NCBI GenBank assembly: GCA_913058185.1
Contig: CAJXQX010000017.1
Location: 1 to 57,407, forward strand
Direction: 5' to 3'
Source: an uncultured Verrucomicrobiota bacterium
GTDB taxonomy: Bacteria > Verrucomicrobiota > Verrucomicrobiia > Opitutales > Opitutaceae
Length of the DNA stretch: 57,407 nucleotides
This document shows positions 4,091-9,937 of this stretch, piece after piece (position 1 is the stretch's first letter; each line of letters starts with the position of its first letter). Both the position numbers and the translations under genes were made by a program. The notes under the pieces were generated by a model. That model made no database searches. It was not told the DNA's origin and saw only the letters and a program-made list of their open reading frames with translations.

Positions 4091-4685
4091 ATGCTATCGC
4101 CTTCTGAACCCATGGAAGAGACCAGCGATCACGATCTGATGCTAGCGGTGCGCGCCGGCGAACTCGGCCGCCTCGGCGATCTGTTCGAACGCCACCACCG
4201 CCAACTCTACGGCTTTCTCGCTCGCTCAATCGGGCAACCGCGACGCCGCCGAAGACCTCGTGCAGATCGTCTTCCAACGGACCCTCAAATACCGCCACAC
4301 CTACCGTGACGAAGGTAAATTCTCGGCCTGGCTTTACCATATCGCTCGACGGGTGGCGGCCGATCACTACCGCCGCTCAGTCCGCCAACCCACCCCAACC
4401 GATCCCGCCGATTTTGATCGAGTATCCGATGAGGTCACCGCGTCCGCCGGCGAGTCAGCCGCGAAACGCGACGACCTCGCCATCATGCAAACCGCCCTCG
4501 AGGAACTTCCTCTCGAACAGCGCGAGATCCTCGTTCTCCACCGCTTCCAGCACCTGCCTCACCAGCAGATCGCCAAGCTCCTCAACATCTCTACCGGCGC
4601 CGCCAAAGTCCGCGTCCATCGCGCCCTCGCGGCACTGCGCGACCGCTTCTTCAAACTCTCCCACCGCCCTTCTCCCCAGGCCTAA
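4091..4685 (+). pseudogene. ECF RNA polymerase sigma factor, frameshifted
   Basis: Region 2 begins in one frame (ETSDHDLMLAVRAGELGRLG, then LFERHHRQLYGFLARS) and continues in another as SGNRDAAEDLVQIVF, the hallmark of ECF region 2, followed by region 4 with LPLEQREILVLHRFQ and an HTH near KLLNISTGAAKVRVHRAL. The switch lies close to 4215-4222; removing one A there restores a single frame of about 198 residues. The downstream neighbours (zinc-finger anti-sigma, DUF4097) form a typical sigma operon. The start is uncertain: ATG 4061, 4091 and 4112 are all possible, 4091 chosen because the upstream residues look non-conserved. Either an indel error or a genuine loss of function. Confidence 0.85.
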
Positions 4686-4699
4686 ATCCATTTTCCACC

Positions 4700-5542
4700 A
4701 TGAACTGCCAACGCATTCAGGATTCCTTCATCGACTACCAATCCGGCACCCTACCCGCGCACCAAGCGAACGCGGTAACCGCGCATCTCAAGACCTGTCT
4801 GGATTGCCAACGCGAATGGGCCGGCCTGCAGCAGGCCCTGCTCACGCTCGACAAACTCCCTCTCCCTGAACCGTCCCCCCGCCTGCAAGCCAACTTCCAG
4901 ATCTGGCTCGACGAAGCTCAGGCCGAGCTCGACTCCCCAAGTCCATTCGCCCTCGCCCGCAGTCGTATCGACTCGTTCTTTGCCGCGCTGCTGCCGAGCC
5001 GTCCCGCCCTACAGTTTGCGCTCACCCTCGCGGTGCTCGTCGCCGGAGTTGCCCTCGGCACGCGTCTTCTCCCCGAGGCTCAACCCGCCGCCGTCATCAC
5101 TCAGCCGGATCCGGGCACCCAACAGGAGCTCGCGGATCTGCGCGCTCAAGTCGAGTCGATGAACCGCGTAGTCAGCACCCACCTTCTCACTCAACCCGCG
5201 TCCGCCCGTCTCCAAAGCGTGATCGCTGCGTTCGATGAAACTGAGATCAACGACCGCACCCTTGCGCGCCTGCTCAACACCCTCGCTTTCGATCCGAGTG
5301 TCAACGTGCGTCTCACCGCCTTGGAAGCACTCTACGCTCACGTCGATCTCGCGCCTATCCGCGCCGGTGTCATGAACGCCCTGCCCCGTGAATCCTCCCC
5401 TCTGGTGCAGGTCGCCATGATCGACTTTGTCGTCGCCTCTCGGGACGGCGGCGCGGCCGCTACTCTCGACCAAATCACTCAGGCACCGGGCATCGACCCC
5501 GTTGTCCGGGAGGCCGCTTACCGGGGTCTCGCTCAGCTCTAA
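4700..5542 (+). CDS. Anti-sigma factor with putative zinc finger (zf-HC2) and HEAT-like periplasmic domain
   Basis: The N-terminus has the zinc-binding pattern of ZAS anti-sigma factors: Cys3, then HLKTCLDC at about residues 29-36. One transmembrane helix follows at about 106-122 (LQFALTLAVLVAGVALG). The periplasmic part contains a short coiled segment and two or three helical repeats (FDPSVNVRLTALEALYAHV, SPLVQVAMIDFVV) resembling HEAT repeats. It starts 14 bp after the sigma gene, so the two are surely co-transcribed; it is expected to hold the sigma factor at the membrane until a signal releases it. Complete at 280 residues. Confidence 0.85.
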   Translation: MNCQRIQDSFIDYQSGTLPAHQANAVTAHLKTCLDCQREWAGLQQALLTLDKLPLPEPSPRLQANFQIWLDEAQAELDSPSPFALARSRIDSFFAALLPSRPALQFALTLAVLVAGVALGTRLLPEAQPAAVITQPDPGTQQELADLRAQVESMNRVVSTHLLTQPASARLQSVIAAFDETEINDRTLARLLNTLAFDPSVNVRLTALEALYAHVDLAPIRAGVMNALPRESSPLVQVAMIDFVVASRDGGAAATLDQITQAPGIDPVVREAAYRGLAQL

Positions 5543-5592
5543 ATTTTAGTATCAACACTTTAACTACATTTAAACCCTTCCCTCGATTCGTT

Positions 5593-6595
5593 ATGAAAAA
5601 TCTCCGCCAATTCTTCGTCCTACTACTCGGTTGCAGCAGTGTGCTGTTCAGCCGCGCCGACGAAACTACTATTCAGTTCTCCGACCCCACCCAACCCGGT
5701 CACCTCACCGTCAACATTGCTCATGGTGAGCTCACCATCGTGGGTGCCGACGTGGACGAAATCACGGTGAACACCGACGCAAAAGAAAATCCTAATAAGA
5801 AGCCGCGAGCCGACGGCATGCGAGTAATCGGATCCAGCACGTCCTACCTGCTAGAGGAAAAGGAGAACCACGCTGTGCTCGAATATGGCACCGACTCCTG
5901 GGGGCAAAATACCGAATTCAATATCGTGGTGCCCCACGACACCCATCTCGAAATCTCCGTGCGCTTCGGCGGTGAGATCCGAGTCGAGAACATCAGTGGC
6001 GACGTTTCGATCAACGGTCTCAACGGCGAAGTCGATCTGGTCGACCTCAGCGAAGGGGCGCTCATCGAATCCATGAACGGTGAGATCGAGGCTTCGTTCA
6101 CGGCCGTCCATCCCGACCGTCCCCTGTCATTTACATCCATGAACGGTGAAATTGAAATCCATCTCCCTGAAGACGCTGCGGCCAACGTGCGCTTCCGTTC
6201 TCAGAACGGCACCATCATGACCAACTTCGACGAAGGCGCCCTCGTCACCACAACGTCATCCGGCCGGGCGTTCGCTCCAGCCCCCCACGAGGAGATCGTC
6301 GAATTTGCCGAAGAGGCTGTCGAGATGGCGATGGAAATTGCTGAGGAAGTTCGCGAAGCCGTCGTCGAGGCCCGGCCGAAACCGCGACGCAGCTCATCGC
6401 AACGAGAACGATACTCATTGGGCCCCTGAGAGCGACACTCCGCATACTCCTCGTGCCCCGAAGGCTCCCCGCAGTCCCAGCATCCCTTCGATGGCAGGCG
6501 GCAAGGTGATCAGCGGCACGCTAAATGGTGGCGGAGTCGATCTACAGATAGCCACCATGAATGGAGACATCGTGGTCCGGAAGCGGAAAGACTGA
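5593..6595 (+). pseudogene. DUF4097-type secreted adhesin-like repeat protein, frameshifted near its C-terminus
   Basis: A signal peptide (residues 1-22) is followed by the stacked short beta repeats of the DUF4097/DUF4098 fold, with recurring NGEI/NGEV motifs (SINGLNGEVDLVDL, SMNGEIEASF, SMNGEIEIHL, QNGTIMTNF). The frame ends at 6429 in unrelated residues, yet another frame running to 6595 carries the missing final repeat (VISGTLNGGGVDLQIATMNG and a Lys/Arg-rich end). A one-base shift between about 6370 and 6430 separates them. DUF4097 proteins commonly follow sigma/anti-sigma pairs in this phylum. The function is unknown; cell-surface or periplasmic location is inferred. Confidence 0.8.
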
Positions 6596-6609: not shown

Positions 6610-8262
6610 TCAGTCTTTCGACTCTTCGGTCGCTTCCGCAGACGCGGGAGCGGCCTTTTTCTTGGTCGTTTTCTTAGCTGCTGTCTTCTTGGGCGTGGTC
6701 TTCTTGGTGGTCGTTTTACGCTTCGGTTTGGCCTTCGCGTTCAACCACAAGGTATCGTCCTTGGCGTTGCGATTAAGCCATAAGATTTCGTCGCCGAGTT
6801 CAATAAACGTAGGCTTTTCATCGGCATCTTCCGGGATATCGAGTCCGGCTTTCACCAATACTTCGAATATTTCGAGGGCCGGCTTGCCCAACGCGTCAGA
6901 CAGGGTTCCGATTTCAGCCGAAGCTCCGATGCCGCGTGACTTTGGTTTGAGCAACAAACGCAGCGCGGGCACCGCATTGGGTCCCGGAGCGAAGGTGATC
7001 TCGCCGCCATTTTCCGGCACGGATTTCTCGTCCTTGGCTGAAGTGTCTTTAACCGCTGGCTCTTCGCCATCGGCAGCTCGCTCATCCGAATCTTGCGACT
7101 TCTTTGAAGCTTTATCCTGATCGCGGCAATTGATCCAAACGCCACCGCGGCCGTCCTGCTTGAGCCAAAAGAGCAGACCATCTGCTTCGACAAAACTCGG
7201 CTTCGCTTCCTTGTCCTCGGGCGCCACCAGATCGATCGCCTTCAGCGCCTCGATCAAGGTCTCTTCGGAATGTTTGAGAGCTCTGGCGAGAAACGAAATC
7301 GTGCCCGACATGCCAGGACCACGACGGTTACGGCGCATCTTGGGTTTGAAGACATCCAGCAGAGCTAGACCTTCGGGTAACGGATCGCCTGGCTTCGCCG
7401 CTTCCGCATCTTCCTCAGCTCTGCGCGCAGCTCGTTCTTCGGACTTCTTTTTCTTATCGGTCAGTTCCGCTTGGTGCTCGGAACGAACGTCATCCGCCGA
7501 GGGATCGTCGGCCTCAACCTTCTTGAGCTTAGTCGTCTTGAATTTCGCCCGCGGCTTTTCGCGCACATTGATGAAGAGCTGACCACGGTTGTTACGATTG
7601 AGCCAAAACAGGTCGCCTTCGAAATCGAAATACTCCGGTAACTCCTCGTCGGTTTCCGGGACGACTAGGCCACACTCGACGAGCGCTCCCATAACGTCTT
7701 CCGGTTCCTGATCCCAGCGTTTGGCCAAATAGTCCAAGGCGGCGGCTTCGCCCGGTCCCCGTTGGTTGCGACGCACGTGCGGTTTGATCGCGTCGAGCAA
7801 AGTCGGGAGGTCATCCTCCATGTCGAGGTCGTCCCAATCGTCGAGTCCGATCCCCTCGGCCTCGTCGGCGAGCGCTTCGGGATCATCGTCACGTTCGGTG
7901 TCGCGCAAGGTGCGTAAACCATCCGGAGTGCCGCCTTCTTTGGCGGCGACGGCCTGTTCACGTTCGGCATCCACCTCTTGGTTGGCTTTCTCGATGCGTT
8001 CTTCGGCGAGCCGATGCTCCTCCTCGCGCTTCTTGCGCTCGTCAGCCTTGGCTTGCGCGGCTGATTCCGCCTCAAGGGTCCAGTCACGCTGTGAACCGCG
8101 TCGGGCCAGACCGTTAAAAGCCAACGGATTGTCGGGGGTCGCCCGATAATCGATGATCTCCCATTCGTCCGTGCCTAATTCGTTTAAAAAATTCTCCAGC
8201 AGTTGTGGACTAGCGAAGCCCCCCTTACCGCTGCTAATTACTTTGTATTCCCAGATAGCCAT
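6610..8262 (-). CDS. Multi-repeat protein with DUF4177-like N-terminus and lysine/alanine-rich histone-H1-like tail
   Basis: Residues 1-45 resemble DUF4177 (WEYKVISSGKGGF.. DEWEIIDY). An acidic, highly charged coiled-coil-prone linker follows (about 65-150). Then come three copies of a domain of about 85 residues (near 150-240, 300-385, 428-512), each opening with LLD.. KP..RRN.RGPG and closing with a WLN/WIN strand pair (FWLNRNNRGQLFINVREK, FWLKQDGRGGVWINCRDQ, LWLNRNAKDDTLWLNAKAK). The last 39 residues are almost all Lys, Thr, Ala and Pro, like bacterial H1-type DNA-binding tails. I infer a nucleic-acid-binding role; no catalytic motif is visible. ATG at 8262; converges with the DUF4097 gene. 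Confidence 0.85.
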   Translation of the reverse strand: MAIWEYKVISSGKGGFASPQLLENFLNELGTDEWEIIDYRATPDNPLAFNGLARRGSQRDWTLEAESAAQAKADERKKREEEHRLAEERIEKANQEVDAEREQAVAAKEGGTPDGLRTLRDTERDDDPEALADEAEGIGLDDWDDLDMEDDLPTLLDAIKPHVRRNQRGPGEAAALDYLAKRWDQEPEDVMGALVECGLVVPETDEELPEYFDFEGDLFWLNRNNRGQLFINVREKPRAKFKTTKLKKVEADDPSADDVRSEHQAELTDKKKKSEERAARRAEEDAEAAKPGDPLPEGLALLDVFKPKMRRNRRGPGMSGTISFLARALKHSEETLIEALKAIDLVAPEDKEAKPSFVEADGLLFWLKQDGRGGVWINCRDQDKASKKSQDSDERAADGEEPAVKDTSAKDEKSVPENGGEITFAPGPNAVPALRLLLKPKSRGIGASAEIGTLSDALGKPALEIFEVLVKAGLDIPEDADEKPTFIELGDEILWLNRNAKDDTLWLNAKAKPKRKTTTKKTTPKKTAAKKTTKKKAAPASAEATEESKD

Positions 8263-8442: not shown

Positions 8443-8739
8443 ATGACACCCGGAGCGAAGATCGAGGTCGAAAACGTGAATGTGCCGGGGCATACGACCC
8501 GGGTAGATGCCGCAAAATACGCTGAAATGAAGCGAGTATTGCTCAAAGTCCTCCCGAAGAAGTCCCCTAGATTGACTCAAAACGAGGTAATCGAAGCCGT
8601 GAAACCGTTGTTGGCGGACGCGTTATTCCCCGGCGGAAGCACGGCAGGTTGGTGGTTCAAGTGCGTGCAACTCGACCTCGAGGCCAAAGGTAAACTCACC
8701 CGCGAACCCACCAAACCCCTCCGCTGGCACCGGAAATAA
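8443..8739 (+). CDS. Small conserved protein of the DUF6958 type
   Basis: 98 residues, no signal peptide or membrane segment. The order of conserved blocks (EVENVNVPG at the start, VDAAKYAEM, the hydrophobic LTQNEVIEAV helix, LFPGG followed by GWWFKCVQLDLEAKG, and the end TREPTKPLRWHR) matches a family of uncharacterised proteins found across proteobacteria and Verrucomicrobia. The helical part with a final WH-like wing suggests a winged-helix fold, but that is my inference. It stands alone, with a 180-bp intergenic region upstream. Confidence 0.75.
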   Translation: MTPGAKIEVENVNVPGHTTRVDAAKYAEMKRVLLKVLPKKSPRLTQNEVIEAVKPLLADALFPGGSTAGWWFKCVQLDLEAKGKLTREPTKPLRWHRK

Positions 8740-8764: not shown

Positions 8765-9937
8765 TCAACGCCTGCAGACTGTCGCCAAAAACTCGCGCAC
8801 GGCATAGGCGGTGAGTTGGCCACCGGGGGCCGTGAGGTTGTAATCGAAAGCGTGGACCGCCCAGGGGAGCTCGACATAGACGTGTGGCACGCCGGCAGCA
8901 TCGAGTCGCTCCGCCAGTCGTTGGCTATGTTTGACCCAACACAGACTATCGACCGTGCCGTGCATGAGCAGCGTAGGTGGGGTCTGGCCTGACCTGACCA
9001 TACCCTGAGCGCTCGCTGAATCGTAGGCGGTTTGATTGGCCGGAGTCGGAGCACCATCGAGGTATTGGTTCATCAATTTGGTCGAATTCAACACGTCGTC
9101 GGGGCGCGAGATTGACCACACGAAATTCATGTCGTAGGCGCCGTAAAGCCCCACCAGTCCCCGCACGGCCGGATCGGGTGCGCCATAAGCTACCGCCGAA
9201 GCAATCTGAGCGCCAGCCGATCGTCCCATGAGCACTAAGCGGGTCGCATCGATGTGCAGTTCGGAGGCATTGGCCTTGAGCCAGTCGATCGCCAGCAACG
9301 TGTCCTCGCGCTGGGCGGGCCAGGGATATTTCGGCGCCAACCGGTAACTGATCGCCGCAACGTTGTAACCCTCCCCCGCCAACCAGTGATTGAACTCCGT
9401 GAGCTGTTCGCGATCTCCGCTGTCCCAACCCCCGCCGTGCACCACGACGACCACCGGCGCACCTGGTTGCTCGGTCGCGTAGAAATCTAGCTTCAATGCT
9501 TCCGGCCAATCGATCGGCGTAAAGGTATGCGTTTTCACTCGAACAGGCTGCACCGCCGGTAACGGGACCCACAAACGTCTCAAATCCACCACGCGTGAGC
9601 TGGAGGGCTTCGTGTCGAATGCTGATTGAAGTTTTGCGGGCAATCCCTGCCCCACTCGCATCGCAAAGGCTACGGGCGATAAAAAGAACCCCGTCGCCGC
9701 CAACGCCAATACGACCGCGATCCCGGCCGGTCGCCAGTAGGGTTGATCCTCGCCCACCATCACCGCCCCGTAGGCCACGATCACGCAAACCAACACCAGA
9801 GTTACCAAACCCAGATAGTGTCCGAATTCCCCGGCCACGATGGCCGCCTTCCACACCACAGTGTTCCACGCCTTCACCCAAGTGAGCAAAGACAACGCGA
9901 ACAACGCGACCGCGAGGCTGAGAAACATCCAACGCAT
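8765..9937 (-). CDS. Membrane-anchored alpha/beta hydrolase (BD-FAE/esterase-like)
   Basis: The N-terminal third holds three predicted transmembrane helices (about residues 4-22, 40-60 and 72-92). The C-terminal domain is an alpha/beta hydrolase of the acetyl-esterase type: oxyanion motif HGGGWDSG at about residue 170, nucleophile in GRSAG, Asp in HGTVDS and His in WAVHAFDYNL. Complete at 390 residues. The substrate is unknown; the family includes carboxyl and feruloyl esterases acting on short esters. A 396-residue ORF in another frame of the same strand is a shadow and has no recognisable domains. Confidence 0.85.
   Translation of the reverse strand: MRWMFLSLAVALFALSLLTWVKAWNTVVWKAAIVAGEFGHYLGLVTLVLVCVIVAYGAVMVGEDQPYWRPAGIAVVLALAATGFFLSPVAFAMRVGQGLPAKLQSAFDTKPSSSRVVDLRRLWVPLPAVQPVRVKTHTFTPIDWPEALKLDFYATEQPGAPVVVVVHGGGWDSGDREQLTEFNHWLAGEGYNVAAISYRLAPKYPWPAQREDTLLAIDWLKANASELHIDATRLVLMGRSAGAQIASAVAYGAPDPAVRGLVGLYGAYDMNFVWSISRPDDVLNSTKLMNQYLDGAPTPANQTAYDSASAQGMVRSGQTPPTLLMHGTVDSLCWVKHSQRLAERLDAAGVPHVYVELPWAVHAFDYNLTAPGGQLTAYAVREFLATVCRR

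Follow-up and report, generated by a model that had tools for sequence, protein, structure and literature searches.

In classical winged helices, helix 3 enters the DNA groove. Among described domains, the MarR/ArsR-type and Zalpha domains come closest to the repeats reported here, sharing their predicted H1-S1-H2-H3-S2-S3 order with approximately 61-68 residues aligned at 2.4-3.3 Å, whereas the repeats lack a sequence profile match, have an acidic helix 3 and carry a conserved Arg/Gly loop that connects H1 to S1, as well as an extra short strand before the hairpin; the structural likeness to Zalpha is common to other winged helices too. A further point of comparison is the PVC signature protein, which, according to a 2014 paper, is said to bind DNA/RNA unspecifically. 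In the accessible text of PMC3444138, this protein (CT421.2 family) measures ~53 to over 80 aa and occurs across PVC phyla; like our protein it is a taxon-restricted PVC protein, whereas the complete sequences at hand here span 471-701 aa and are found in one family only. The third relation concerns the N-terminal head, which resembles DUF4177 (PF13783). The B. subtilis DUF4177 protein YjzH is listed in PMC12456014 among proteins of unknown function recovered in an RNA-bound fraction, and the same paper underlines how it resembles the acetyltransferase SpeG. Across 188 genomes of the class, 16 of the 18 other DUF4177 matches above the cut-off lie in frames of 69-226 aa and the rest in frames of 313 and 479 aa, whereas the head described here stands at the start of a repeat protein of 550 residues. 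The protein is uncatalogued and has three copies of a likely winged helix, each with an acidic helix 3, behind the DUF4177-like head.

The window (the whole stretch of DNA that was analysed, 57,407 nucleotides) encodes this protein on the minus strand, with an ATG at 8262 and a stop at 6610-6612, and the start codon is backed by an M..WEYK motif kept at the N-termini of relatives. The protein runs from the head through an acidic stretch that contains a long predicted helix, and on through three ~85-residue repeats, to a Lys/Thr/Ala-rich tail, as follows:

6610..8262, minus strand: whole gene, 550 aa plus stop, matched in 30 of the 37 same-family genomes
8089..8262, minus strand: DUF4177-like head, residues 1-58, better conserved than any other part (mean pairwise identity 71%)
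7813..8088, minus strand: acidic stretch, residues 59-150, with a long predicted helix at 63-108 (full-length model and charge count)
7549..7812, minus strand: repeat 1 (R1), residues 151-238, predicted winged helix (repeat profiles and model)
7750..7773, minus strand: RRNQRGPG loop of R1, residues 164-171, with R164 and N166 identical in 27/27 aligned proteins
7375..7548, minus strand: linker 1-2, residues 239-296, with a predicted helix at 254-288 (full-length model)
7111..7374, minus strand: repeat 2 (R2), residues 297-384 (repeat profiles), folded alone with pLDDT 93.2 and pTM 0.82
7312..7335, minus strand: RRNRRGPG loop of R2, residues 310-317, with R310, N312, R313 and G317 identical in 27/27 aligned proteins
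6985..7110, minus strand: acidic linker 2-3, residues 385-426, mostly of low confidence in the model
6721..6984, minus strand: repeat 3 (R3), residues 427-514, with a diverged opening loop (repeat profiles and model)
6613..6720, minus strand: Lys/Thr/Ala-rich tail, residues 515-550, of low confidence in the model

A terminator-like hairpin on the plus strand (6628-6655) falls within the 3' coding end of the gene; such hairpins are no commoner here than in shuffles.

The protein is apparently restricted to Opitutaceae, the name of the family (f1) being inferred from the titles of relatives. A protein search of 57 relatives gave 30 matches, all within the 37 f1 genomes, and none in 20 genomes representing 20 further families of the same order. 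The repeat profile matched 23 of the 30 listed f1 genomes plus one weak match elsewhere among 286 genomes of the class, and 21 of the 25 listed f1 genomes plus two weak matches elsewhere among 288 genomes of the phylum. By sequence reading, the weak class match G280 (E 0.0026) looks like a glycolate-oxidase-type iron-sulphur protein and is taken as a chance match, and the weak phylum matches G420 and G505 are IF-2. In the 13 f1 genomes that were match-less in the protein and class searches, the full-length profile gave no credible match (G020 reached E 0.64 across a stop codon), and some of these absences may be assembly gaps, because G004 and G021 have a completeness of 82% and 81%. A scan of the named collection with head motifs, which finds relatives and is no test of absence, yielded 179 relatives, of which 80 were kept, with titles naming Opitutaceae, Opitutae/Opitutia, Opitutus, Ereboglobus, Rariglobus, Cephaloticoccus, Oleiharenicola or just Verrucomicrobia, and with an intact 583-aa copy in Ca. 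Synoicihabitans palmerolidicus (L075). The phage and plasmid collections returned no match by tblastn. Relative to the closest relative (L002), dN is 0.12 and dS ~2, the latter saturated or nearly so in most regions, and the gene is under purifying selection.

Iterative searching of the relatives, with a profile started from the copies in the window, located 84 repeat copies in 29 proteins (from 30 loci), with three copies in 27 of them; the exceptions are L017 with two, L026, which is cut short, with one, and L030, which is a short head piece only. (Alignment A1 omits L026, L029 and L030, and alignment A2 omits L026 and L030.) The first-pass annotation had described an 85-residue domain that occurs three times, which cross-profile scores of 53.5-91.0 bits bear out: on the window protein, the R1-only profile scored 91.0 bits for R2 and 54.6 for R3, the R2 profile 88.5 for R1 and 53.5 for R3, and the R3 profile 76.8 for R1 and 67.2 for R2, each profile comprising 27 rows with the window's own repeats among them, compared with 8.2 bits for the best of 2,997 shuffled repeats. 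Moreover, single-position profiles recovered the other two positions in 27/27 proteins (40.5-104.8 bits), and the likeness among the three repeats is not due to chance. The KP..RRN.RGPG opening, proposed for all three copies, is present in R1 and R2 and replaced by KPKSRGIG in R3. In the repeat tree, a branch with a support of 100/98 separates R3 from the remaining copies, and R1 and R2 need two changes each, with the long or diverged L029, L027 and L028 straying and many forks lacking resolution; the simplest reading of these sequences is that the triplication would predate the sampled relatives.

Conservation along the 27 aligned proteins, as mean pairwise identity, is 71% in the head, 63% in R1, 55% in R2, 50% in R3, 43% in the acidic stretch, 29% and 20% in the linkers and 25% in the tail. 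Residues 4-39 of the head align to positions 1-43 of the DUF4177 profile. The assignment, already suggested from the sequence, stays below the curated cut-off of 25 bits in the window protein, which scores 19, whereas the orthologues G219, G022 and G032 pass the cut-off, as do G117 and G013 only if counted with frame neighbours; at E values up to 0.1, the match appears in 22 of 27 orthologues. In NCBIfam, only Sp36_fam matched, over the head, with 12.7 bits where the cut-off is 50.

For the repeats, no model in Pfam or NCBIfam covers the copies in the window protein. When 83 repeats and 27 orthologues were scanned with Pfam, the matches were few, scattered and weak. Neither the window protein nor these repeats and orthologues matched MarR/ArsR families in Pfam, and Zalpha is absent from the 15 Pfam families matched by any of the 83 repeats at E up to 1. 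An enzymatic domain, which would have spoken against a nucleic-acid binder, did not appear in Pfam or NCBIfam for the protein, nor in Pfam for its repeats or its orthologues. PHROGs returned one match at E 0.14, PADLOC none, and PDB sequence searches best E values of 0.75, 0.14 and 0.46. The accessible text of the DUF4177 literature (including PMC12456014, PMC6210493 and PMC13118837) holds nothing on this protein, a search for Opitutaceae with winged helix found no paper, and further searches, one for Verrucomicrobia with nucleoid-associated protein among them, found nothing on it in the text accessible. Together, this fits the initial impression that no characterised protein of this composition is known, the protein being missing from the libraries searched and apparently confined to one family of Verrucomicrobia.

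Structure prediction had been recommended at the outset. AlphaFold2 modelled one repeat, with 83 aligned rows, at pLDDT 93.2 and pTM 0.82 in the order H-E-H-H-E-E-E (H2-12, E22-25, H26-32, H37-45, E61-64, E67-73, E79-85), and by this order of elements the predicted repeat corresponds to the H1-S1-H2-H3-S2-wing-S3 topology of winged helices. Foldseek with one repeat found nothing significant, its best match (E 0.099) not being a winged helix, and the Rag, roadblock and MglB folds (E 0.099 and weaker, TM ~0.35) were dismissed as noise. VIA-align 2, run on the candidate list of Foldseek with neighbours classed by title, returned mostly winged helices at Z 4-6 (best Z 5.7 for one repeat and 6.2 for the full model), among them AbfR against one repeat (Z 5.7, 65 aligned, 2.9 Å) and ADAR1 Zalpha against R3 (Z 5.8, 61 aligned, 2.4 Å). 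Z values of 4-6 are below the level at which a match convinces alone, and they may reflect a common arrangement only. Other folds in the list included, for one repeat, a Spx-YjbH entry as well as CorC_HlyC domains at Z 4.1-4.3, and coiled coils, XRCC4 and KCTD proteins for the full model; matches to TFIIIC TauB (full length, rmsd 18 Å), to KCTD5 (head, Z 5.3, 52 aligned) and to RctB (Z 5.5, 4.1 Å) were set aside. Because of the topology and the drift of the neighbour list, the winged helix is the best reading, and the repeats likely adopt this fold. The full-length model (mean pLDDT 74.3, pTM 0.30) predicts long helices at 63-108, a possible coiled coil, and at 254-288, with low confidence at 109-127, 239-249, 385-420 and 517-550, and at a pTM of 0.30 the mutual placement of the domains is therefore not fixed by the model.

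Helix 3 of the repeats is acidic. Its median net charge in the 27 aligned proteins is -3 in R1 (range -4 to -1), -2 in R2 (-3 to 0) and -2 in R3 (-3 to 0), which, at the level of sequence, places the repeats outside the canonical DNA-reading winged helices with their basic or neutral recognition helix. Conserved basic residues are located instead in the RRN.RG loop and the wing: R164, R165 (Arg or Lys in 96%), R168, R226 and K236 in R1, R310, R311, R313, R314 and R372 in R2, and R435, K483 and K510 in R3. From the acidic helix 3 and the basic loop and wing we infer that any nucleic-acid contact should use the loop before strand 1 together with the wing, the two being placed relative to each other by reasoning from the predicted topology. 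The conservation of these Arg-rich loops, together with the predicted fold, for which nucleic acids are common ligands, agrees with the first-pass annotation, which had taken them as pointing to nucleic acids. Over the whole window protein (net -28), the charges are -3 in the head, -20 from residue 59 to R1, -7 in R1, -1 in linker 1-2, +2 in R2, -5 in linker 2-3, -3 in R3 and +9 in the tail; the medians of the 27 three-repeat proteins (whole protein -20) are, in the same order, -1 (including L029, whose N-terminus was not read from the true start), -15, -4, -2, +3, -6, +1 and +5. The linkers had been described as acidic, which is correct for the stretch from residue 59 to R1 and for linker 2-3, while linker 1-2 is nearly neutral and part helix.

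Such acidic regions also suit a protein-protein scaffold, in which the winged helices would dock as in ScpB/ESCRT-II and the RRN.RG loop and the W..N hairpin would be protein interfaces. ScpB and the ESCRT-II winged helices, which act in protein complexes, are among the structural neighbours, and the long predicted helices together with the acidic helix 3 and stretches are in line with this role; the conserved Arg-rich loops, however, look more like nucleic-acid contacts, and no obvious partner gene lies nearby; we regard a scaffold as rather doubtful. The commonest neighbours are an alpha/beta hydrolase and rsuA. In the window, the repeat gene is preceded on its own strand by a BD-FAE-type alpha/beta hydrolase (8765-9937) that lies upstream, and such a hydrolase occurs within ~6 kb on the same strand in 38 of 80 loci and directly upstream in 29 of 79, the latter count resting on a crude GC3 gene caller of our own with L097 dropped, as the target gene was not called there. 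Of the 80 loci, 45 have rsuA within ~6 kb, encoded on the opposite strand, many of the 80 being truncated by contig ends, and no functional module emerged among the neighbours in these related loci. Divergent from the repeat gene, 8443-8739 encodes a 98-aa DUF6958 protein (E 9.9e-35; 2 of 80 loci), and convergent with it, 4260-6429 holds, one after another, a sigma-factor-like ORF (by reading), an anti-sigma-like zf-HC2 protein that also has a HEAT-like match, and a DUF4097 protein; no more than 3 of 80 loci have this trio close to the repeat gene.

The tail had been likened to histone H1 and taken as a pointer to DNA. It measures 36-38 residues depending on the R3 end chosen rather than the 39 first given, and the Lys/Thr/Ala/Pro composition is confirmed (K11, T9, A7 and P2 in the last 36). 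The likeness to the H1-like HC2 of Chlamydiae extends to the Lys/Ala/Thr-rich composition only: a histone-like Pfam family matched one of the 27 orthologues (HC2, E 0.011), and the window protein gave no HC2 match. Moreover, relatives bear similar tails on RsfS, a protein that binds the large ribosomal subunit. In four of nine same-family genomes, RsfS has a Lys/Thr/Ala/Pro-rich C-terminus of 56-73 residues (G001, G003, G006 and G008, at loci L205, L208, L206 and L212, respectively), compared with non-basic 24-residue ends free of a K/T/A tail in G000, G002, G004, G005 and G007; no K/T/A/P-rich tail was seen on RsfS of three other-family genomes, and the window genome's own RsfS has no basic tail. 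The second match in G001 is this Lys-rich RsfS tail and not another copy of the repeat protein. Because RsfS of relatives bears such tails, the tail is not a histone mark; with an identity of 25% as well, the histone argument from its sequence is weak.

This bears on a DNA-architectural or nucleoid-associated role, in which three winged helices and the basic tail would bridge distant DNA segments. The predicted fold, the tandem modules on flexible linkers, the tail that is basic in most of the 27 proteins (net charge from -2 to +11 with a median of +5), the single copy in the window's genome and the structural neighbours, most of which are DNA-binding regulators by title, would all be compatible with it. 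Against these stand the negative median charge of helix 3 in all repeats of the 27 aligned proteins, the net charge of -28, the unconserved tail sequence, the HU/IHF-family gene already present elsewhere in the genome and a codon adaptation of 0.631, unlike that of an abundant protein. This value ranks 15th of 48 window genes and was obtained with a reference of 20 ribosomal-protein-cluster genes including EF-G, which we recognised ourselves and which, scored against themselves, reach 0.55-0.82. The nucleoid reading offered initially is weakened accordingly by helix 3, charge, the HU/IHF-family gene and middling codon adaptation, and we consider it unlikely.

Our best explanation, put forward tentatively and at somewhat less than even confidence, is a multivalent, family-specific nucleic-acid binder aimed at RNA or the ribosome rather than the nucleoid. 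In this protein, which is probably cytosolic, the DUF4177 head and the long helix would hold copies together, and three winged-helix modules on flexible linkers would each contact the backbone with Arg/Lys of the wing and with the basic loop ahead of strand 1, which is RRN.RG in R1 and R2 and has diverged in R3; the acidic helix 3, going by conservation and charge, would be kept out of the groove, and the basic tail would contribute unspecific affinity. RNA or the ribosome is the more likely target compared with DNA, and the hints to it are weak: a likeness to IF2_N, YjzH in the RNA-bound fraction, the RsfS tails and rsuA nearby. IF2_N (PF04760), from the N-terminal region of IF-2, aligned to the S1-H2-H3 core of the repeat over 28 columns with a low hhalign probability of 18.5, compared with 1.4 for the best of 60 column-shuffled controls, and 9 of 83 repeats matched it weakly (best E 0.015); unlike IF-2, the repeat protein has no GTPase domain, and its wing hairpin is outside the aligned columns. 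An IF-2-like ORF of another genome of the phylum (L163) shows long KKTAAKK tracts between its N-terminal domains. The RNA reading is countered by the negative charge of R1 (-7), R3 (-3) and the whole protein (-28) in the window, by the blank Foldseek result, by gene neighbours that are not functionally tight, by the tail-less RsfS of the window's genome and by the link to YjzH, which concerns the small head domain only. In its most far-reaching form, which we hold to be rather improbable, the protein would represent an undescribed, Opitutaceae-confined subclass of winged helices, carried three times behind an oligomerising DUF4177 head, that binds RNA or the ribosome via an Arg-rich loop at the end opposite the usual recognition helix and serves as a lineage-specific RNA-binding hub in most of the family.

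Overall, most genomes of a family that is widespread in the environment encode this protein and keep it under purifying selection; it carries neither a family name nor an assigned function in the libraries searched, and it provides a context in which the DUF4177 domain could be studied. If the repeats do contact RNA or the ribosome through a non-classical surface, this would add a binding mode to a very common fold, and Verrucomicrobia would gain a lineage-specific RNA or nucleoid factor.
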